Below are positions 21,681 to 34,673 of a DNA stretch of 35,482 nucleotides, piece by piece (position 1 is the first letter of the stretch; each line of letters begins with the position of its first letter). The stretch lies in the NCBI GenBank assembly GCA_013297775.1, contig JAAFIL010000037.1:1-35482 (forward strand). The letters are read 5' to 3'. The translations under genes were made by a program, and so were the position numbers. The stretch comes from Bacteroidota bacterium. GTDB taxonomy: Bacteria; Bacteroidota; Bacteroidia; B-17B0; Aurantibacillaceae. Below the pieces are notes generated by a model that searched no databases, was not told the DNA's origin, and saw nothing but the letters and a program-made list of their open reading frames with translations.

Positions 21681-22832
21681 CTAATGCAGCACTGGGTTTC
21701 TATTTTTATGAAGTGCCATTTTTAAGTGATGATTCGCCATTACTTCATCGTAAACGCTTATCATTTTGGCAATACTTATTTGAAGCGTGAATTTACGGTT
21801 CACCAAGTCATAACCACTTTGTCCCGCTTTTTCGCCTCGTGCAGGATGTAATAAAATCGTTTCCATGGCGTTAGCAATTTCCAATTCATTAGCCGCATTT
21901 ACAATTTGATTGCCATTTGTTTGTGATACTAAATGAACCAATCCCTCGGCTTCGCTCACAATTACAGGCTTTGCACAAGCCATTGCTTCTAAAATATTAA
22001 CACCAAAACTTTCGTAAGTAGATACATTAAGTAGTAAATGCGAATTTGCAATATACCAAGCCACTAACCATTCCGATACTTTTCCAGTAAACAAAACACA
22101 ATCGGCTACACCAATTTGTGTGCTTAATGTTTTTAAATACCTTGCTTGGCTGCCTTCGCCCAAAATAATTAAGCGCATGGCTTTGGTAGGATATTTTTTC
22201 TTTAAGTGTGCAAAAGCTAAAATTAATTGATGATTATTGTACATCGGCTCTAAAGCTTTTGCACAACACATTGTAAAAACCCTATTGTCAACAACGTGAT
22301 CAGAAGGTTTAAAAATTTCAGTATCTACTCCAAACGGAACAATGGCAATAGGTTTACGAGTTAACGGTTTTAAATAGTTTACCAAAGTGGGAGAAGTTGC
22401 ACAAATAGAATGGGCACATTTCAAATTAAACTTTAAAATCATTTTATGAATAAAACTCTTTTGCGGAAATTTCATCACATCGGTTCCCCAAACAGATATA
22501 ATAAAAGGTTGGAAGCCCGTTAAAGCACCCAATAGCCCGTAACTACTGGCATAATGCGCATGTAACACATCGGGCTGAAACAATTTGATTTGTGTTTTGA
22601 GAGTTTTTAAAAAACGTAAATAACCTAGTTTTGAAAGTAATGCAGTCGGGTTTTGATGTCCTGCTCGTAAGTTCAAAAAGACGATACCCGCTTCGCTATA
22701 CCAATCGTAATCGGGTAAATTAAAACTAAAAATTCCAATAGTAAAACCTTTCTTACTTAAACCCAAAGCCCATTTTTTTGTGTGAGCTGAGTTGCCATCT
22801 GCTAAAATTAAAATACGAGTTGCCATCTTCAA
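21681..22832 (-). CDS. Family 4 glycosyltransferase (GT-B fold)
   Basis: The protein has 383 residues. The N-terminal Rossmann half opens with RILILADGNSAHTKKWALGL and contains VLHAHYASSYGLLGAL. The C-terminal half has the nucleotide-sugar donor site: PFGVDTEIF, LIILGEGSQARYL, and the E-x7-E type motif in YESFGVNILEAMACAKPVIV. These are the features of retaining GT4 transferases that act on capsule, O-antigen or exopolysaccharide. The acceptor and sugar cannot be told from the sequence. There is no transmembrane segment, so it should act at the inner face of the membrane. Met3 (22826) is a possible alternative start. No other polysaccharide genes are adjacent, which is unusual for this family. 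Confidence 0.9.
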   Translation of the reverse strand: MKMATRILILADGNSAHTKKWALGLSKKGFTIGIFSFNLPDYDWYSEAGIVFLNLRAGHQNPTALLSKLGYLRFLKTLKTQIKLFQPDVLHAHYASSYGLLGALTGFQPFIISVWGTDVMKFPQKSFIHKMILKFNLKCAHSICATSPTLVNYLKPLTRKPIAIVPFGVDTEIFKPSDHVVDNRVFTMCCAKALEPMYNNHQLILAFAHLKKKYPTKAMRLIILGEGSQARYLKTLSTQIGVADCVLFTGKVSEWLVAWYIANSHLLLNVSTYESFGVNILEAMACAKPVIVSEAEGLVHLVSQTNGNQIVNAANELEIANAMETILLHPARGEKAGQSGYDLVNRKFTLQISIAKMISVYDEVMANHHLKMALHKNRNPVLH

Positions 22833-22903
22833 TACAATTACAATACTTGGATAGTAAAATTCACGAAAGGTTTAAATTGAAATTCAAAAACATTTTATCC
22901 CTC

Positions 22904-23065
22904 ATACCAATATTGGTTCTAAAAGATACAAGTTGAACCAGAATTATTTTTCTTGTAGGCGACGAAAAAATTATGGGCGTAGCAAGGCCTACGGGTATAA
23001 TTTTTGAGGGAGTATAAGAGAAAAAGAAACTGGGTCAACGTATCTTTTAGAAATGATGTTGGTAT
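22904..23065. repeat. Palindromic element 3 (162 bp, one long imperfect hairpin) upstream of ccoI
   Basis: The outer arms 22904-22941 and 23030-23065 pair at about 31 positions, with a perfect 13-bp core (TTCTAAAAGATAC / GTATCTTTTAGAA). The inner arms 22966-22974 and 22997-23005 (AAAAATTAT / ATAATTTTT) and the central CGTAG-CAAGGC-CTACG (22978-22993) close the hairpin. The size and arm layout match palindromic element 2 (16313-16456), and both carry AGGCGA in the left bulge and GGGA in the right. It ends about 60 bases before the Fnr-like site of ccoI. No coding frame is credible. Confidence 0.85.
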
Positions 23066-23127
23066 CAAGGTAATTTCACAATGTTTAAGATACTTGCGTG
23101 TATTAAAAAATAGATATAAAGAATTGA

Positions 23128-23139
23128 TGATATAAATCA
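23128..23139 (+). promoter_or_regulatory. Crp/Fnr-like operator upstream of ccoI
   Basis: TGATATAAATCA contains the TGAT-N4-ATCA core of the Fnr box (full consensus TTGAT-N4-ATCAA). Its centre (23133.5) lies 51.5 bp before the first base of the TAATTTTG -7 box, the same distance as in the ccoS promoter. This would put it about 64 bases before the transcription start, where a class I activator acts. An oxygen-responsive Fnr-type regulator is the obvious candidate for cbb3 genes, but no regulator gene is in the window. Confidence 0.6.
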
Positions 23140-23184
23140 CTTTTTCTACCAACAAAAGTCATTTTCGTTGGATGAGACTCTCAT

Positions 23185-23192
23185 TAATTTTG
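23185..23192 (+). promoter_or_regulatory. -7 box TAATTTTG of ccoI
   Basis: This is an exact TAnnTTTG match with 8 bases between it and the ATG at 23201. The sequence from here to the start codon (TAATTTTGTACC, then ATGAGC) is nearly the same as before ccoS. There is no good TTTG -33 element, as expected for an activator-dependent promoter. The transcript would have almost no leader. Confidence 0.6.
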
Positions 23193-23200
23193 TACCATAT

Positions 23201-25615
23201 ATGAGCCTAGTTATCCGAAAACCAATTGTTACCTGTTTTCATTGTGGCGAAGATGTAATCACCGAAGGAATTACAAGTAACGACAAACACTTTTGTTGCA
23301 CGGGTTGCAAAACCGTTTATGAAATAATTAATAAAAACCAGATGTGCGAGTATTATGATTTAAGCGCATCGCCAGGCATCAATCAACAAACAAAAATAAG
23401 AGAGGGCAAATTCGATTTTTTAGACGATGCGCCCATCATTGATAAATTAGTTCATTTTAAAGATCAAACGTATTACCATGTAACGTTTTATTTACCGCAA
23501 ATGCACTGCATGTCGTGTATTTGGATATTGGAACACCTCCATAAATTGAATGCAGGAATTAGTTCTTCAACTGTAAATTTTATAAAAAAAGAAGTAACGC
23601 TAATTTACAAGCACAGTCAAACAACGCTTAAAGAGGTCGCTAAAACATTAACACGTATTGGGTACGAACCGCACATTAGTTTAAACGACATCAACACCAC
23701 TAAAATAAAAAAGTACGACCGTTCGCGAATTATTAAACTCGGCATTGCAGGATTTTGTTTTGGTAATATTATGATGTTAAGTTTTCCAGATTATTTTTCT
23801 TTAGGAACTTTGGAAAATCCTGAATTAAAACATTGGTTTAATTACCTTAACTTAATTTTATCGCTTCCCGTATTTTTTTATGCGGCTTCCGAATTTTTTA
23901 TTTCGGGTTACAAAGGATTAAAACAAGGATTTCTTAACATTGATGCGCCCATTGCCTTAGCTATTTTGATTACCTTTTTACGAAGTGTTTATGAAATTGG
24001 TTCAGCCAGTGGAGTAGGTTACCTCGACTCTATGAGTGGCATTGTTTTTTTTATGTTGATTGGGCGTTACTTTCAAAATCGAACGCATCAACGCATTTCG
24101 TTCGACAGAGATTATACCTCTTATTTTCCGTTAGGTGTAAGCGTCATCCATCCCGATGGTAACGAAACGCAAATTTCGGTAGCCGATTTAAAAGTGGGAC
24201 ACCGTATAAAAATTCATAACGATGAAATTATTCCTGCCGACTCCATTTTATTTTTAGGTAAAGCAACCATTGATTATAGTTTTGTTTCGGGCGAATCATT
24301 AGCCGTCGAAAAATCAATTGGCGAAATTATTTATGCAGGCGGGAAACAAACTTCGGGGGCTATTGAACTAGAGGTGTTAAAAGAAGTTTCGCAAAGTTAT
24401 TTAACCCAACTGTGGAATAATGCGGCCTTCAAAACAAAAAAAGAGGTTGTTACTGTTTCATTCATTCATCGCATTAGCCGTTACTTTACTTATGCTCTTT
24501 TTTCGGTTGCGTTGCTGGCAGCAAGCTATTGGTTTATTTACGACGCAAGCAAAATATGGAACACCATCACCTCTGTGCTTATAGTGGCTTGTCCCTGTGC
24601 TTTATTATTAAGTGCAACGTTTACCAATGGCAATATGATTCGTATTTTAAACAAGTATAAATTGTATGTAAAAAATGCCGCGGTTATAGAACGCATGGCC
24701 GCCATAGATACCGTTGTGTTCGATAAAACAGGAACCATTACCGAACAAGGTAAGTCAGATATTATATTTTGTGGCGAAGACTTAACGCCACTTCAGCAGC
24801 AATTCATTCGTTCGCTTGCCAACCAATCCAAACATCCACTTAGTAAAAGTATAGTATCGTTTTTACCGTTTAGCCCATCACTTCCAGTTAAAGCGTATAA
24901 AGAGTGGAAAGGCTTTGGTGTTGAAGGTTTCATTAATACTGTATCCATTAAAATGGGATCTGCCGAATTTATTTTAGGAAGTAAATCACCGAAGGTTAAT
25001 GTAGGAAGTACCGTTTACATCAGTATTAACGGGGCATGTGTGGGTTACTTTCTAATCAACACCAAATACCGAAATGGACTAGCCGAAATCGTAATGCAAT
25101 TAAAAAAGCAAGTTCAAGTAAAAATTTTATCGGGCGATAATGACTCGGAGGCAGCCTATTTAAAAACCATTTTTGGGCGAGATACAGAAATGCACTTTAA
25201 TCAAAAGCCCGAAGACAAATTACGCTACATTCAACAACTGCAAAAGCAACACCGTGTATTAATGATTGGCGATGGGCTAAACGATGCGGGAGCTTTGATG
25301 CAGAGCGATGTAGGCATTGCAATTAGCGACGATACCAATAATTTCTCGCCAGCTTGTGATGCGGTGTTATCGGGTAAAAATTTCAATTTACTAAATGAAC
25401 TTATTTGCTACTGCCAAAAAGAAAAACTAATTATTTACGCAAGTTTTGCTTTATCCATTGCCTATAATTTTATTGGATTATACTTTGCAGTGATGGGCGA
25501 TTTAAAGCCGGTGATAGCCGCTATTTTAATGCCTATTAGTTCCATCAGTATAATTTTACTAACCACAGGGTTGAGTAGTTTATTCGAGTTTAAACTTAAA
25601 AAGTCTAAAGTATGA
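23201..25615 (+). CDS. ccoI: CcoI/FixI: copper-transporting P-type ATPase for cbb3 oxidase assembly
   Basis: The protein has 804 residues from ATG 23201 (MSLVIRKPIVTCFHCG). An ATG 33 bases upstream is in frame, but it would lie before the predicted transcription start. Domains in order: an N-terminal Cys-rich metal-binding domain (CFHC near residue 12, CCTGC near 33), a heavy-metal-associated domain with MHCMSC (about 101-106), transmembrane helices, the actuator loop with SGESLAVEKS, the ion-path CPC in VACPCALLL, the phosphorylation site DKTGT in VVFDKTGTITEQG, and the hinge GDGLNDAGAL. Known FixI/CcoI proteins move Cu(I) across the inner membrane for insertion into the CuB site of cbb3 oxidase. 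The cluster with ccoS and ccoNOQP distinguishes it from a CopA detoxification pump. Its stop codon overlaps the ccoS operator. Confidence 0.95.
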   Translation: MSLVIRKPIVTCFHCGEDVITEGITSNDKHFCCTGCKTVYEIINKNQMCEYYDLSASPGINQQTKIREGKFDFLDDAPIIDKLVHFKDQTYYHVTFYLPQMHCMSCIWILEHLHKLNAGISSSTVNFIKKEVTLIYKHSQTTLKEVAKTLTRIGYEPHISLNDINTTKIKKYDRSRIIKLGIAGFCFGNIMMLSFPDYFSLGTLENPELKHWFNYLNLILSLPVFFYAASEFFISGYKGLKQGFLNIDAPIALAILITFLRSVYEIGSASGVGYLDSMSGIVFFMLIGRYFQNRTHQRISFDRDYTSYFPLGVSVIHPDGNETQISVADLKVGHRIKIHNDEIIPADSILFLGKATIDYSFVSGESLAVEKSIGEIIYAGGKQTSGAIELEVLKEVSQSYLTQLWNNAAFKTKKEVVTVSFIHRISRYFTYALFSVALLAASYWFIYDASKIWNTITSVLIVACPCALLLSATFTNGNMIRILNKYKLYVKNAAVIERMAAIDTVVFDKTGTITEQGKSDIIFCGEDLTPLQQQFIRSLANQSKHPLSKSIVSFLPFSPSLPVKAYKEWKGFGVEGFINTVSIKMGSAEFILGSKSPKVNVGSTVYISINGACVGYFLINTKYRNGLAEIVMQLKKQVQVKILSGDNDSEAAYLKTIFGRDTEMHFNQKPEDKLRYIQQLQKQHRVLMIGDGLNDAGALMQSDVGIAISDDTNNFSPACDAVLSGKNFNLLNELICYCQKEKLIIYASFALSIAYNFIGLYFAVMGDLKPVIAAILMPISSISIILLTTGLSSLFEFKLKKSKV

Positions 25616-25626
25616 TATATGTCATA
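25611..25626 (+). promoter_or_regulatory. Crp/Fnr-like operator upstream of ccoS
   Basis: TATGA-TATATG-TCATA is a dyad with perfect 5-bp half-sites in the Crp/Fnr 5-6-5 layout. It overlaps the TGA stop codon of ccoI (25613-25615). Its centre (25618.5) lies 51.5 bp before the TAATTTTG box at 25670, identical to the spacing in front of ccoI. It is probably the control site of the whole ccoS-to-hemN series. Confidence 0.6.
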
Positions 25627-25669
25627 ATAGGCAATGACCGTCGTCAAAAATTATAAAGTAGAGCCTAAG

Positions 25670-25677
25670 TAATTTTG
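25670..25677 (+). promoter_or_regulatory. -7 box TAATTTTG of the ccoS operon
   Basis: This octamer is identical to the ccoI box, again with 8 bases to the ATG (25686). No TTTG is present at the -33 position (the sequence there is AAAAATTATA), which fits dependence on the upstream activator site. Confidence 0.6.
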
Positions 25678-25685
25678 TAACCACT

Positions 25686-25868
25686 ATGAGCGTCCTTTTT
25701 ATCCTTATATCCGCTAGTTTAATCATTGCTATCGGTTTTTTAGTAGCCTTCATTTGGTCAGTAAAATCAGGTCAGTACGACGATGACTACACGCCTTCGG
25801 TGCGAATGTTGTTTGATGATGAACTCACCGCTAATAAAACAGAAATAAAAAAATCAATTAAAGATTAA
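25686..25868 (+). CDS. ccoS: CcoS: cbb3-type oxidase assembly protein
   Basis: A 60-residue protein with one N-terminal membrane helix (MSVLFILISASLIIAIGFLV) is followed by the family signature FIWSVKSGQYDDDYTPSVRMLFDDE. CcoS is a small inner-membrane factor needed for cofactor (heme and copper) insertion into the catalytic CcoN subunit. The MSVL start and the SGQ(Y/F)DD motif make the call firm in spite of the short length. It is the first gene of the main operon and is 11 bases before ccoNO. Confidence 0.92.
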   Translation: MSVLFILISASLIIAIGFLVAFIWSVKSGQYDDDYTPSVRMLFDDELTANKTEIKKSIKD

Positions 25869-25879
25869 AAAAACAAATT

Positions 25880-28030
25880 ATGGAATTAGAAAAATTTAGG
25901 TACGATAATCAAATTGTAAAAATGTTTGGTATTGCCACAGTTGTATGGGGTTTGGTAGGGATGTTAGTAGGGGTTTTAGTAGCCTTACAAATGTATATCC
26001 CCGCACTAAATTTTGATTTGGCATACACTACTTTCGGTCGCACACGCCCCCTACACACCAACGCCGTTATTTTTGCCTTTGTTGGAAACGGCATTTTTAT
26101 GGGCGTTTATTATTCGTTACAACGTTTAGTAAAAGCACGCATGTTTAGCGATTTATTAAGTAAAATCCATTTTTGGGGCTGGCAACTCATTATCGTATTA
26201 GCCGCCCTATCTTTATTATTGGGTTACACAACCGGAAAAGAATACGCCGAATTAGAATGGCCAATAGACATCATTATAACATTGGTTTGGGTTGTATTTG
26301 GCTGGAACATGTTTGGTACTATCATCAGACGACGCGAGCGACATTTGTATGTAGCAATATGGTTTTACATTGCCACTTTTGTAACAGTAGCCATGCTACA
26401 CATTGTTAATTCTATCGAAATTCCTGTGTCTTTAACCAAATCCTATTCGTGGTATGCAGGCGTTCAAGATGCGTTGGTGCAATGGTGGTACGGACACAAT
26501 GCCGTTGCTTTTTTCTTAACCACCCCTTATTTAGGTTTAATGTATTACTTCATTCCTAAAGCCGCTAACCGCCCAGTTTATTCGTATCGCTTATCCATCA
26601 TTCACTTTTGGGCTTTAATATTCTTATACATTTGGGCAGGACCTCACCACTTGCTATACACCGCCGTTCCCGATTGGGCGCAATCACTAGGTGTTGTGTT
26701 TTCGGTAATGTTAATTGCGCCATCGTGGGGTGGTATGATTAATGGCTTGCTTACCTTGCGTGGCGCATGGGACAAAGTACGCGAAGATGTAGTGCTAAAG
26801 TTTATGGTAGTGGCAGTTACCGCTTATGGCATGGCCACGTTTGAAGGCCCCATGCTATCGCTCAAAAGTGTAAGTGCCATTGCGCATTACACCGATTGGA
26901 TTGTAGCACACGTTCACGTTGGCGCATTAGGTTGGAACGGTTTCTTAACGTTTGGGATTTTATATTTCTTAATTCCAAAACTATTCCGCACCACTTTATA
27001 CTCGCAAAAATTAGCCAACCTCCATTTTTGGATTGGTACTTTAGGCATCTTATTGTATGCCGTTCCCATGTATTGGGCAGGCTTTATGCAAAGCTCAATG
27101 TGGAAAGATTTTACACCCGAAGGGCAATTAAAATGGCAGTTTTTAGAAACCGTTACACGCTTGATTCCATTTTATGCCGCACGCTCTATTGGTGGTACCT
27201 TGTATTTAGTAGGTGCTATTGTAATGGCTTATAATTTGTTTAAGACCGCAAAAGCAGGTTCGTTTTTAGCCGATGAAGAAGCAGAAGCCATGGCATTATC
27301 TAAAAGCTACGCAGCGCATTCTAAAGACCATTGGCACCGCTGGATTGAGCGTAAACCCATCCAACTTATGATTGTAAGTTTAGTGGTTGTTATCATTGGG
27401 GGTATCATCGAAATTGTACCTACTTTTTTAATAAAGTCAAACATCCCAACTATTGCAAGCGTTGAACCCTACACCCCTTTAGAGTTAGAAGGCAGAGATA
27501 TATATGTACGCGAAGGCTGTTATACCTGTCATTCGCAAATGATACGTCCATTTAGAAGCGAAACCGCAAGGTATGGCGAATATTCTAAAGCGGGCGAGTT
27601 TGTTTACGACCACCCATTTCAATGGGGCAGTAAACGCACAGGTCCCGACTTAGCACGCGAAGGTGGAAAATACCCAGATAGTTGGCATTACAATCACATG
27701 TTAGAACCTAACTCTATGTCGCCAGGGTCTATTATGCCGCCTTACTCGTGGTTGTTAGACGATGACTTAGATGTATCTACTCTAAAAACAAAAATTAAAG
27801 CCATGCAAACCTTAGGTGTTCCTTATCCAGAAAATTATGCCGAACTAGCAGAAGCTGATTTGAATAAGCAAGCCAATACCATTGTGGCTAATCTTAAAAA
27901 AGATGGAATCGAAACCTCTCCTAAAAAAGAAATCATTGCACTCATTGCTTACTTACAACGCATTGGTACCGATATAAAAAAGACTAGTGCAACAGACAGC
28001 TCAAAAAAACAATTCACTTCTAAAAACTAA
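25880..28030 (+). CDS. ccoN: Fused CcoN-CcoO: catalytic and monoheme cytochrome c subunits of cbb3 oxidase
   Basis: The protein has 716 residues. Residues 1-480 are CcoN, a 12-helix heme-copper oxidase subunit. Expected metal ligands are visible: His59 (PLHTNAV, low-spin heme), His206 (WYGHNAV) and His256/His257 (GPHHLLY) for CuB, Tyr250 as the candidate cross-linked tyrosine, and His344/His346 (AHVHVGALGW) for hemes b3 and b. After a charged linker (SKDHWHRWIERKP), residues about 490-716 are CcoO: one membrane anchor (LMIVSLVVVIIGGII) and a periplasmic cytochrome c domain with CYTCH at 547-551, then FQWGSKRTGPDLAREGGKYP and PGSIMPPYSWL. Separate ccoN and ccoO genes are the rule in Proteobacteria, and this fusion is known in Bacteroidota. 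The complex reduces oxygen to water at high affinity and pumps protons. Confidence 0.96.
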   Translation: MELEKFRYDNQIVKMFGIATVVWGLVGMLVGVLVALQMYIPALNFDLAYTTFGRTRPLHTNAVIFAFVGNGIFMGVYYSLQRLVKARMFSDLLSKIHFWGWQLIIVLAALSLLLGYTTGKEYAELEWPIDIIITLVWVVFGWNMFGTIIRRRERHLYVAIWFYIATFVTVAMLHIVNSIEIPVSLTKSYSWYAGVQDALVQWWYGHNAVAFFLTTPYLGLMYYFIPKAANRPVYSYRLSIIHFWALIFLYIWAGPHHLLYTAVPDWAQSLGVVFSVMLIAPSWGGMINGLLTLRGAWDKVREDVVLKFMVVAVTAYGMATFEGPMLSLKSVSAIAHYTDWIVAHVHVGALGWNGFLTFGILYFLIPKLFRTTLYSQKLANLHFWIGTLGILLYAVPMYWAGFMQSSMWKDFTPEGQLKWQFLETVTRLIPFYAARSIGGTLYLVGAIVMAYNLFKTAKAGSFLADEEAEAMALSKSYAAHSKDHWHRWIERKPIQLMIVSLVVVIIGGIIEIVPTFLIKSNIPTIASVEPYTPLELEGRDIYVREGCYTCHSQMIRPFRSETARYGEYSKAGEFVYDHPFQWGSKRTGPDLAREGGKYPDSWHYNHMLEPNSMSPGSIMPPYSWLLDDDLDVSTLKTKIKAMQTLGVPYPENYAELAEADLNKQANTIVANLKKDGIETSPKKEIIALIAYLQRIGTDIKKTSATDSSKKQFTSKN

Positions 28031-28212: not shown

Positions 28213-29427
28213 ATGAATTCCTCACGAATAATAAAACGAATGTATCTAGCAATGCTATTAGTAGTACCATTTCTAGCATCGGCACAAGAAGAAGCAAAAG
28301 TAGTAAGTACCACTTACTTTTCTAACGCCTTGTTCATTACCTTATTGGTTGTAATCTTAGTATTGTTAATCTTGATTTTGGCCATGGCGAGTGTATTTAA
28401 AAACTTAACACAAAGCAATTATTTTCAAGAAAAGTACAAGGCAAAAAATAATAATTCAACCAATATAATTCCAACAATACTGCTTACGCTGTTTACATTA
28501 GTAGGATATCAAGCCGTGGCGCAAGATGGCGCAGTTCCTCAAACCGTAGCAGGCACTAATTGGCTGGTTGGCGGGCTAGATAGCTTTACATTTTATTTCA
28601 TGATTAGCATTATTTTTATTGAAGGTCTTTGTATTTTTCTTTTATTCAATCTTATTAAAGGATTTATTAAAATTGATAAAGCACCCGATGCTTTAATAGA
28701 TGCAACGCCTAAGGTAAGTCCCGTTAAAGAAAAAACTATTTTAGAAAAGCTAAACGCTTCGGTTGATATAGAGAAGGAATCGGAAATTATGCTCAACCAC
28801 GATTACGACGGCATTCGAGAGTTAGACAATAACTTACCCCCTTGGTGGAAATATGGATTTTACCTTACCATTGCCATTAGTGTTATTTATTTAATTCATT
28901 TTCATGTTTCTAAAACAGGCGATTTGCAAGGCACCGAGTACACCAAATCTATTGCTGCTGCAAAAGTGGAGTTAGACGAATACATGAAAACTTCGGCGAA
29001 TAATGTAGATGAAACAACTGTAAAAATGTTAGAGGGTGATAACCTCATTGCTGGGAAAGAGGTATATATTGCCAATTGCGTTGCCTGTCATGGCAAACTT
29101 GGCGAAGGTGGAGTAGGTCCTAATTTAACCGATGCGTATTGGTTGCACAGTGGTGGTATTTCAGATATTTTCAAAACCATCAAATATGGTATAGCCGATA
29201 AAGGTATGAAAGCGTGGAAAGAAGATTTATCTCCTATGCAAATGGCTCAATTAAGTAGTTATATTAAAACATTAAGTGGAACCAATCCGCCTAACGGTAA
29301 AGCTGCGCAAGGCGAGTTATACACCGAAACGGCAATAGTTCAAACAACCGATACCTTATCCAACTCAAAAGATAGTTTAAAAACAAACGAATTACCCAAA
29401 GATAGCAGCTTAACCAAACTAAAGTAA
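28213..29427 (+). CDS. ccoP: CcoP: membrane-bound cytochrome c subunit with a single heme site
   Basis: The protein has 404 residues. The N-terminus has a signal-like segment (YLAMLLVVPFLASAQ), a helix (NALFITLLVVILVLLILILA), a second signal-like segment (LLTLFTLVGYQAVAQ), and another helix (FYFMISIIFIEGLCIFLLF). The typical CcoP anchor (LPPWWKYGFYLTIAISVIYL) comes next, at about 208-227. The C-terminal cytochrome c domain has one CxxCH (CVACH, 289-293), then LGEGGVGPNLTDAYWLHSGG and GMKAWKEDLSPMQM with the likely Met ligand. Classical CcoP has two hemes, so this is the short one-heme form. The N-terminal extension of about 200 residues with extra helices is larger than in Proteobacteria. The Ser/Lys-rich C-terminus (ETAIVQTTDTLSNSKD) is probably flexible. 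Confidence 0.93.
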   Translation: MNSSRIIKRMYLAMLLVVPFLASAQEEAKVVSTTYFSNALFITLLVVILVLLILILAMASVFKNLTQSNYFQEKYKAKNNNSTNIIPTILLTLFTLVGYQAVAQDGAVPQTVAGTNWLVGGLDSFTFYFMISIIFIEGLCIFLLFNLIKGFIKIDKAPDALIDATPKVSPVKEKTILEKLNASVDIEKESEIMLNHDYDGIRELDNNLPPWWKYGFYLTIAISVIYLIHFHVSKTGDLQGTEYTKSIAAAKVELDEYMKTSANNVDETTVKMLEGDNLIAGKEVYIANCVACHGKLGEGGVGPNLTDAYWLHSGGISDIFKTIKYGIADKGMKAWKEDLSPMQMAQLSSYIKTLSGTNPPNGKAAQGELYTETAIVQTTDTLSNSKDSLKTNELPKDSSLTKLK

Positions 29428-29446
29428 AGTGCGAAAAACGAAGAAC

Positions 29447-30850
29447 ATGGAACTAGATAATGAACACGAAAGTTTTAGAGATAGTATTGCTACTATTGAT
29501 GCGAATGGGAAACGAGCTTGGATTTTTCCTAAGAAACCAAGTGGTAAATTATTTAACCTTCGCGCGTATTTAAGTTATGTTTACTTGATTGTATTTTTTG
29601 GGTTACCACTCATTAAAGTTAATGGTGATCCATTATTTTTAATAGATGTGTTTCATAAAAAATTCATCTTGTTTGGAATGATTTTTTGGCCTCAAGATTT
29701 TTTCATATTTGGTTTGGGCATGCTCATTTTTATTGTATTCGTAGCTTTATTTACCGTGGTGTTTGGGCGTGTGTTTTGTGGCTGGGCGTGTCCGCAAACT
29801 ATTTTTATGGAAATGCTTTTTCGACGTATTGAGTATTTTATAGAAGGCGATGCTAACCAACAAAGGGCGTTAAAGCAAGCCCCGTGGACTCAAGAGAAAA
29901 TGATAAAGCGAAGTTTAAAGTTTATTTCTTTTTTTGCGTTATCCTATTTAATAGCGAATACATTTTTGAGTTACTTAATCAGTTTTGATGAAGTTGCTAA
30001 ATTATATACCGAAGGACTTAGTGCCAATAGCGGTAGTTTTATTGCGCTACTCATTTTTACTTTTATTTTTTATTTTGTTTACTCCTATTTAAGGGAGCAA
30101 ATTTGTTTAATCGTTTGTCCGTATGGGCGCATGCAAGGGGTTTTGTTAGATAAAAATTCTATTGTGGTGGCTTATGATTATGAGCGGGGAGAGCCTCGAC
30201 ATAAACTACGCAAAAACGAAGCGCGCGGAAAAGGCGATTGTATTGATTGCGGTTTATGTGTAAAAGTATGCCCAACAGGTATTGATATAAGAAATGGAAC
30301 GCAGTTAGAATGTGTGAACTGCACCGCCTGTATTGATGAGTGCAACAGCGTTATGGAAAAAGTAAATTTACCAATCGGCTTAATTCGCTATGCTTCCGAA
30401 AATGGGATTAAAAACAAACAGCAACTTGCACTTACTACACGCATGAAAGCCTATACAGTTGTGTTATTAGTGCTTTTAGGCATCGAAACGTTTTTATTAG
30501 CCACCCGCTCCGACTATGATGTAAGCGTTTTACGCGCCAAAGGCATGTTGTATCAACAACAGCCCAATAATAAAATCAGTAATTTATACACCATCAAATT
30601 AGTCAACAAAACCCGCAACGACTTGCCCGTAGAAATCAAAGTTGAAAACCTTGATGCCGATATTCAAATCATCGGTAAGGCTCTCATGGTAAAGCACGAG
30701 GGCGTTTCGGAGGGAGAGTTTTTTATCATTCTTAAAAAGAGCGATGTTAAGAAACGTAAATCAATCATCGAATTAGGCATCTATTCTAACAACAAAAAAA
30801 TTAAAACTATAAAAACAAATTTCTTAAGCAATGTTTCACGTAACACCTAA
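29447..30850 (+). CDS. ccoG: CcoG: polyferredoxin-type cbb3 oxidase accessory protein
   Basis: The protein has 467 residues from ATG 29447 (MELDNEHESFRDSIATID). A GTG at 29429 is in frame, but it follows the ccoP stop by one base and would add only six residues. Motifs: FGRVFCGWACPQTIFMEMLF in the first membrane half, QICLIVCPYGRMQG, and two 4Fe-4S clusters in CIDCGLCVKVCPTG and CVNCTACIDECN. A further membrane helix (TVVLLVLLGIETFLL) is followed by an Ig-like periplasmic domain (LYTIKLVNKTRNDLPVEIK). Known CcoG (RdxA-type) reduces Cu(II) or keeps copper reduced during oxidase assembly. Confidence 0.95.
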   Translation: MELDNEHESFRDSIATIDANGKRAWIFPKKPSGKLFNLRAYLSYVYLIVFFGLPLIKVNGDPLFLIDVFHKKFILFGMIFWPQDFFIFGLGMLIFIVFVALFTVVFGRVFCGWACPQTIFMEMLFRRIEYFIEGDANQQRALKQAPWTQEKMIKRSLKFISFFALSYLIANTFLSYLISFDEVAKLYTEGLSANSGSFIALLIFTFIFYFVYSYLREQICLIVCPYGRMQGVLLDKNSIVVAYDYERGEPRHKLRKNEARGKGDCIDCGLCVKVCPTGIDIRNGTQLECVNCTACIDECNSVMEKVNLPIGLIRYASENGIKNKQQLALTTRMKAYTVVLLVLLGIETFLLATRSDYDVSVLRAKGMLYQQQPNNKISNLYTIKLVNKTRNDLPVEIKVENLDADIQIIGKALMVKHEGVSEGEFFIILKKSDVKKRKSIIELGIYSNNKKIKTIKTNFLSNVSRNT

Positions 30851-30856
30851 TTAATT

Positions 30857-31291
30857 ATGAACTGGGGAAAAAAGATAGCTGTATTGTATTTAAGTTTTGT
30901 AGCATTAATCATCACCTTAGTGAGTTTATGCTTTGGTCAAAAAGTAGAACTCGAAAGTAAAGATTACTATGCACAAGAACTTAAATTTCAAGATAAAATA
31001 AACGCCATTGCTAACGAAAAAAAATTGACATCATCTATCACACATCTTTTGCAAAACAAGCAAATTCTATTAACTGCCGATACCAGCCTAACACAGCATG
31101 GTTTTGAAGGAGCCGTTAAATTTTTTCGCCCATCTGACTCAAGTAAAGATGTAAGTTATGAGCTAAATTTTATAAATAACCAACAACGCATTCCTACTAG
31201 GGCATTGGTTCACGGGGTTTATAAAATGCAATTGTCGTGGGTAAGCAACAGCATATCTTACTTTAAAGAAGAGGTTATTTTTATAGACTAA
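30857..31291 (+). CDS. ccoH: CcoH/FixH family protein
   Basis: The protein has 144 residues. MNWGKKIAVLYLSFVALIIT is an N-terminal anchor helix of the FixH type, followed by a periplasmic domain with KVELESKDYYAQELKFQDKI, the best-conserved block of the family (the YY-x-Q/E segment), and a beta-rich remainder. FixH/CcoH is an assembly or stability factor that contacts the oxidase and works with the copper pump CcoI. The gene lies 6 bases after ccoG and 1 base before the TauE/SafE gene. Confidence 0.9.
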   Translation: MNWGKKIAVLYLSFVALIITLVSLCFGQKVELESKDYYAQELKFQDKINAIANEKKLTSSITHLLQNKQILLTADTSLTQHGFEGAVKFFRPSDSSKDVSYELNFINNQQRIPTRALVHGVYKMQLSWVSNSISYFKEEVIFID

Positions 31292-34657: not shown

Positions 34658-34673
34658 TATGACGAACATCATA
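34658..34673 (+). promoter_or_regulatory. Crp/Fnr-like dyad upstream of the small membrane-protein gene
   Basis: TATGA-CGAACA-TCATA has the same half-sites and 5-6-5 layout as the ccoS operator. Its centre (34665.5) is 41.5 bp before an octamer ending in TTTG (AGTATTTG, 34707-34714). That octamer is 10 bases from the ATG at 34725. The spacing is one helical turn shorter than at the two cco promoters. The -7 box is only a partial match. Confidence 0.4.

Follow-up and report, generated by a model that had tools for sequence, protein, structure and literature searches.

A conserved tandem Crp/Fnr-type operator and its candidate two-component regulator at cbb3 oxidase genes of Bacteroidota

The ccoI and ccoS genes of a Bacteroidota bacterium (family Aurantibacillaceae; assembly GCA_013297775.1) are each preceded by Crp/Fnr-type dyads that, judged by comparison with relatives, are parts of a predicted 65-bp tandem operator, TGA-N6-TCA-N10-TGA-N6-TCA-N23-TAnnTTTG. 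The window analyzed is the whole of contig JAAFIL010000037.1 (35,482 bp), which is contig C60 of the 128 contigs in this 4.35-Mb genome. Behind the window sites there is a conserved tandem operator and, probably, a two-component, Crp-type regulator of a low-oxygen regulon. The explanation that we favor, with reasonable confidence, is that the operator would be bound by a protein in which a receiver domain is fused to a Crp-type activator, that a FixL-like kinase is its partner, and that the genes concerned form a low-oxygen regulon. An initial annotation of this region had proposed joint control of the two genes by a Crp/Fnr-family activator; the conservation of the dyads and their spacing in relatives, the target genes, and the co-occurrence of a Crp-type regulator strongly support this interpretation, which is right in kind, although the protein involved is probably something other than a classical Fnr.

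Anatomy and conservation of the operator

Both promoters are on the forward strand. At ccoI, a distal dyad (TGATATAAATCA, 23128 to 23139) is followed by a degraded proximal dyad (CAACAAAAGTCA, 23150 to 23161), with an intact right half and two mismatches in the left half, and by the -7 box (TAATTTTG, 23185 to 23192); the register of both dyads is taken from relatives. At ccoS, the distal dyad (TGATATATGTCA, 25613 to 25624) overlaps the ccoI stop codon, and the second dyad (TGACCGTCGTCA, 25635 to 25646), overlooked in the initial annotation, lies 22 bp downstream of the first, is intact, and precedes the same box (TAATTTTG, 25670 to 25677). The initial annotation had placed a single dyad 51.5 bp before the box at both genes, and the distance is exact (from dyad centers at 23133.5 and 25618.5 to the first base of the octamer), but the description is incomplete in that it gives the distance of only the distal member of a pair. 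The 8 bases between the octamer and ATGAGC (at 23201 and 25686) are likewise correct for both window genes, but this is not a conserved feature, since the octamer ends 4 to 37 bases before the start codon in 14 ccoI promoters of relatives and 4 to 62 bases in 36 ccoS promoters. Operators with an exact octamer and no more than two dyad mismatches occur twice in the window and never in 40 Markov shuffles of it.

For the comparison with relatives we used the best 80 of at least 594 cco loci from a contig database, giving 145 upstream regions (66 of ccoI and 79 of ccoS); 14 of the 80 ccoI and 1 of the 80 ccoS regions were dropped, as the N terminus was not reached by any match or fewer than 100 bases were present. 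Controls are the reversed pattern for pattern searches and Markov shuffles for spacings. A TGA-N6-TCA dyad is present in 96 of the 145 upstreams (Markov mean, 6.6) and absent from the other 49; seven loci have none at ccoI or ccoS (L072, L078, L080, L086, L087, L094, and L098), four of them labeled as Sphingobacteriaceae. Where two dyads lie within 60 bases of each other, the spacer is exactly 10 bases in 64 of 75 pairs, 11 in 3, and scattered in 8. The gap from dyad to TAnnTTTG is 23 bases in 41 and 45 bases in 47 of 94 cases, compared with at most one 23-base gap and no 45-base gap in 200 shuffles, so that the original claim of an arrangement beyond chance holds for these relatives as well. 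The 51.5-bp distance belongs to the 45-base class and thus to the distal dyad. With 88 of the 94 gaps in the two classes, the spacing to the core promoter is fixed, as in class II-type promoters, and aligning 54 promoters on their dyads alone recovers TA-TTTTG.

In Flavobacterium psychrophilum, the sigma-A box TAnnTTTG is placed at -12 to -5 (PMC9723704). Carried over to the window, this register predicts transcription starts at 23197 for ccoI and 25682 for ccoS, each with a 4-base leader, and dyads centered at -63.5 and -41.5. The proximal dyad of ccoS would then be centered at -41.5, the position of class II FNR promoters (PMC4886647), the equivalent dyad at ccoI being the degraded one, and the distal site would be 2 bp farther upstream than the classical -61.5. 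With 22 bp, or two helical turns, between them, the dimers would share one face of the helix. Among 107 exact-core sites, the distal dyad is closer to the FNR form (T in 55% after TGA and A in 67% before TCA) and the proximal dyad is looser, in line with the fact that it is the proximal one that ccoI has lost. An Rfam search of positions 22800 to 25900 found no structured RNA near the promoters.

Occurrence of the operator and the genes behind it

The family survey covered 87 genomes from a search of the order, all listed in the window's own family and spread over ten genera. The full 65-bp operator has 140 matches in 52 of these genomes and none with the reversed control. The genome of the window has two exact tandems, one at ccoS and one on another contig (C7:406-439), each followed by 23 bases and TAATTTTG; these are also the only exact copies of the full operator (C7:406-470 for the second). 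The C7 copy lies before a gene for DoxX, and one for Usp follows downstream.

To identify the genes behind the operator, we took 107 distinct matches out of the 140 and compared what lies downstream with the window and C7 genes by blast. Behind them are genes for Usp (12), DoxX (11), ccoNO (10, the longest frame being taken and any intervening ccoS passed over), ccoI (6), kinase-like proteins (4), single receivers (2), and other products (58), and 4 operators have no open frame starting within 250 bases. Pfam searches of 20 chosen examples, 5 of which matched no family, identified, among other families, Hsp20, NadA, phosphofructokinase, BON, CBS, nitroreductase, flavodoxin, cytochrome c, peroxiredoxin, 2-hydroxyacid dehydrogenase, MlaE, TerB, metallo-beta-lactamase/rhodanese, a phenylacetate catabolism protein, and a pyridine nucleotide-disulfide oxidoreductase (with a sulfide dehydrogenase domain below the cut-off). 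In its content, this set resembles a regulon for dormancy or for low oxygen. The operator also stands, in three relatives, before a homologue (50 to 65%) of the kinase described below.

Several further arrangements are noted. In L178 and L182, operators lie 4 bases (octamer to ATG) before genes for stand-alone 120-amino-acid receiver proteins, which may add another layer to this pathway. A small protein without a Pfam family (L141:1295-1666; about 123 to 131 amino acids, two members scanned) is encoded within the C7 cluster, and proteins like it, identified by eye, are directly behind the operator in three relatives (L150, L187, and L193). In genome G003, 18 of 28 distinct TGAT-form dyad pairs have the 10-base spacer, and 16 of the 18, counted by eye, lie within 124 kb of the 4.6-Mb genome (G003:C1:3675803-3800022), which suggests a chromosomal low-oxygen island.

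A receiver-Crp fusion as candidate regulator

The initial annotation suggested looking for a Crp/Fnr regulator gene, and the genome encodes ten proteins with cNMP domains, one of which, on C7, is a fusion with Pfam domains Response_reg (residues 5 to 116), cNMP (159 to 243), and HTH_Crp_2 (279 to 349). Its gene adjoins and overlaps by 4 bases a gene for a PAS-HisKA-HATPase_c kinase, and this adjacency of a PAS histidine kinase and a receiver protein is a FixLJ-like pairing. The LuxR-type output of FixJ and a separate FixK, as in FixLJ-FixK, are not seen for this pair, the single fusion protein standing in their place. A four-cysteine (4-Cys) FNR query (E ≤ 1e-20) finds only the receiver-Crp fusion in this genome. 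On this ground a 4-Cys FNR was rejected as the regulator here. None of the ten cNMP proteins shows an N-terminal Cys cluster on reading, and for this reason the protein designated L014 (C56:13053) was rejected as an FNR.

Within the fetched flanks of the 80 cco loci, 17 include the receiver part of the fusion and 18 others include a Crp protein whose N terminus carries a Cys cluster; in three more (L093, L099, and L104) the Crp part is cut by the locus end. The recognition helices of both kinds are mostly TE(S/T)xIR-like, with TETTIR in the present fusion and SETVSR in L086, L094, and L098. In a tree of 42 regulators, from which truncated proteins were left out, the fusions and 4-Cys FNRs group in one clade (support, 100/99) that excludes this genome's other nine Crp-like proteins, and the Cys type is a subclade (support, 100/99); the fusions are unresolved as one group, and the outgroup branches are long and the root unsure. 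Of the promoters linked to a fusion, 12 of 31 have the tandem, and of those linked to an FNR, 17 of 36; counted by locus, the figures are 12 of 17 and 13 of 18, respectively. Both kinds of regulator thus appear to serve the same operator.

Inspection of the receiver sequence shows the acidic pocket, the Asp, and the Lys that would be expected. The cNMP domain has no Arg-Ser pair of the kind that we take to mark cAMP-binding CRP, which makes phosphorylation the more likely input. The best solved-structure matches of the kinase PAS domain are DosP (E = 2.8e-15) and FixL (E = 4.6e-15), both heme oxygen sensors, and 18 of 20 PAS sequences have the His that aligns with what we take to be the heme-ligand position of these two, the exceptions being L173 and one of two L036 segments. 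We infer from these matches that the kinase PAS domain may bind heme.

We propose the following mechanism. Low oxygen would lead the adjoining PAS histidine kinase to phosphorylate the fusion from C7, two dimers of which would bind side by side, 22 bp apart, at the predicted proximal position of -41.5 (the class II position) and the distal position of -63.5, and would recruit the Bacteroidota housekeeping sigma factor to the -7 box. The fusion would thereby activate ccoI, the ccoS-ccoNO-ccoP genes, and the DoxX/Usp cluster, so that a single protein would combine the roles of FixJ and FixK.

Co-occurrence of operator, fusion, and cco

The distribution of the fusion (E ≤ 1e-40; some matches are only partial or paralogous) follows that of cco among the 87 genomes. 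Fusion matches are present in 70 and ccoNO in 58; both are present in 57, cco alone in 1 (G069, 76% complete), the fusion alone in 13, and neither in 16 (P = 8e-9), so that the fusion is matched in 57 of 58 cco-positive and 13 of 29 cco-negative genomes. In good assemblies, 45 have both, 0 cco alone, 8 the fusion alone, and 9 neither, i.e., the fusion is in 45 of 45 cco-positive compared to 8 of 17 cco-negative genomes (P = 1.2e-6). The operator and the fusion are both found in 50 of the 87 genomes, the operator alone in 2 (G017 and G061, both poorer assemblies), the fusion alone in 20, and neither in 15 (P = 9e-6); when only good assemblies are counted, 41 of 53 genomes with the fusion have the operator, compared with 0 of 9 without it (P = 1.4e-5). 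For good genomes lacking cco, the operator is present in 4 of the 8 fusion carriers and in 0 of the 9 others (P = 0.03).

Weighing the explanations

A number of observations weigh against the fusion as regulator of a regulon defined by this operator. In this genome the fusion gene and cco are not on the same contig, and the kinase gene has no tandem upstream of it; among relatives, 5 of the 17 loci with the fusion near cco (L033, L046, L086, L094, and L098) have no tandem at either gene. Twelve of the 53 good fusion-positive genomes lack a strict operator, and across all 29 cco-negative genomes the operator is in 6 of 13 with the fusion and 2 of 16 without it (P = 0.09). Within the fusion-positive set, presence of the operator is also associated with cco (44 of 57 versus 6 of 13; P = 0.04), and all of the co-occurrence counts and P values ignore the relatedness of the genomes. 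What we take to be the distal Arg of FixL is Lys in this kinase, and many non-heme PAS domains carry the same His.

The genome of the window belongs on the same side of the balance. It has only two strict operators plus the degraded one at ccoI, and looser patterns are not enriched relative to the reversed controls: TGAT-N5-TCA with 30 to 60 bases to TAnnTTTG occurs 8 times (versus 18), tandems with at most one mismatch 4 times (versus 12), proximal-plus-box sites with at most one mismatch 46 times (versus 41), and TGAT-type dyad pairs 0 to 30 bases apart 4 times (versus 3). Three of the 8 loose dyad-box matches have the 45-base gap, these being the two cco sites and one other. The enrichment of the spaced pair that the initial annotation had named as a check, in particular near microaerobic genes, and whose absence it counted as a refutation, is therefore not seen with the loose pair in its own genome; it is the full tandem form that is enriched, and in relatives, where it fronts cco, usp, doxX, and other genes.

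The strongest competitor, though still unlikely, is that the operator is real but bound by another Crp/Fnr protein, such as the L014 protein, with the fusion having other targets. Ten cNMP-domain proteins offer candidates, and four good fusion-matching genomes (G002, G007, G030, and G085) lack both cco and a strict operator, pointing to other roles for the fusion. However, the other nine Crp-like proteins fall outside the cco-linked clade of fusions and 4-Cys FNRs, albeit on long branches, the recognition helix of L014 reads RQTVT rather than TETTIR, and the operator tracks the fusion among good genomes without cco, as given above.

It is less likely still that the tandem is a repressor operator, acting in oxic repression, and not an activator site. 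A regulator at -41.5 would cover the region that we take a -33 element to use, but, as we understand such promoters, a site at that position in strict phase with the -7 box is a mark of activation, repressor sites tolerating varied positions. The cbb3 oxidase is also raised under oxygen limitation in F. psychrophilum (PMC9723704).

The initial annotation left open whether the paired promoters arose by duplication or selection; selection is favored, and promoter duplication within the window is unsupported. Outside the half-sites, 16 of 45 positions upstream of the box agree between the window promoters (36%, with 28% expected by composition), and the ccoI and ccoS promoters of the 14 relatives that have both operators are 37% identical, compared with 32% for random promoter pairs. 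Chance resemblance or recent duplication inside the window is thus very improbable, for although both leaders contain TAATTTTGTA and ATGAGC, box and leader match at 6 of their 10 free bases, and TAATTTTGTA is itself common (77 places versus 60 reversed), identity upstream of the box is near background and both genes keep the operator with the same spacing in relatives.

Genomic context

The operator-linked genes are all on the forward strand. The ccoI gene (23201 to 25615), which begins with ATGAGC and presumably codes for the copper-transporting P-type ATPase of cbb3 assembly, is followed by ccoS (25686 to 25868), the first gene of the cco operon, and by ccoNO (25880 to 28030), a fusion gene of the cbb3 oxidase. 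All three were located by tblastn among relatives, and we take their names from family features, Pfam confirming only FixH, i.e., ccoH. The ccoP, ccoG, and ccoH genes (28213 to 31291), the first two named from reading the sequence, are probably on the same transcript, as judged from gene spacing.

Between a divergent glycosyltransferase-like gene and ccoI there is a repeat (22899 to 23070) of about 165 bp, whose ends are imperfect inverted copies of each other over 31 bases and which stops about 60 bases upstream of the ccoI operator. Forty places were scored of 165 candidates in the genome, comprising the window copy and 39 others at 94 to 98% identity; the copies also match the reverse strand at about 70 to 73% and make up a MITE- or REPIN-like family, the window copy having no Rfam match. 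An isolated TGACGAACATCA dyad is present at 34660 to 34671, just 3' of hemN and before a gene for a 113-amino-acid protein, and the full operator pattern is absent around it even at up to four mismatches.

Comparison with known systems

To our knowledge, oxygen control in the Bacteroidota has been little described. Among the matches listed in a search of titles and abstract openings, with most subscription papers outside its reach, neither such an operator nor such a fusion regulator is described, and no naturally widespread -41.5/-63.5 tandem was seen. It is somewhat more probable than its negation that a low-oxygen regulon is run here by a two-component system whose response regulator is a Crp-type activator on a rigid tandem operator, and that related lineages pair the operator with an Fe-S FNR; under such an arrangement the sensor would have been exchanged while the operator stayed. 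If so, this would be a second case, besides the Alphaproteobacteria, of sensor exchange on conserved sites, and the two-dimer geometry is directly testable. The 65-bp signature, with no reversed-control match in 87 genomes, may make low-oxygen regulons readable from sequence.

Tandem-bound FNR is known at E. coli promoters. The sites described here are like E. coli FNR class I and II promoters in having a dyad related to TTGAT-N4-ATCAA and the predicted position of -41.5 (PMC4886647), and unlike them in that two adjacent dyads 22 bp apart, at predicted positions -41.5 and -63.5, are usual, and in the TGA-N6-TCA core with a loose center, loosest in the proximal site. The 4-Cys FNR regulators beside cco in Chitinophaga and relatives share the ccoI/ccoS operator, a similar TE(S/T)xIR helix, and a joint clade with the fusions, and differ in having the N-terminal Cys cluster, no receiver, and a separate subclade. 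The DosR/DevR dormancy regulon of Mycobacterium has a LuxR-type regulator and an operator unrelated to the tandem; we understand its target types to include Usp, Hsp20, nitroreductase, CBS, phosphofructokinase, and BON, a likeness of content only.

The closest comparison is with FixLJ-FixK of the Alphaproteobacteria, which has a PAS histidine kinase with a heme-PAS-like sensor, a receiver step, and cco targets, and in which FixK, like the fusion, is of Crp type without an Fe-S cluster (PMC4999443). The systems differ in that the alphaproteobacterial cascade has FixJ and FixK as separate proteins, whereas here receiver and Crp domains are in one, and in the tandem 22-bp operator and TAnnTTTG promoter found here. 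The same paper proposes that FixLJ-FixK replaced FnrN in one lineage, with FixK binding existing FnrN sites, and the present case looks like a parallel of that FixK takeover in the Bacteroidota, with receiver and Crp joined.

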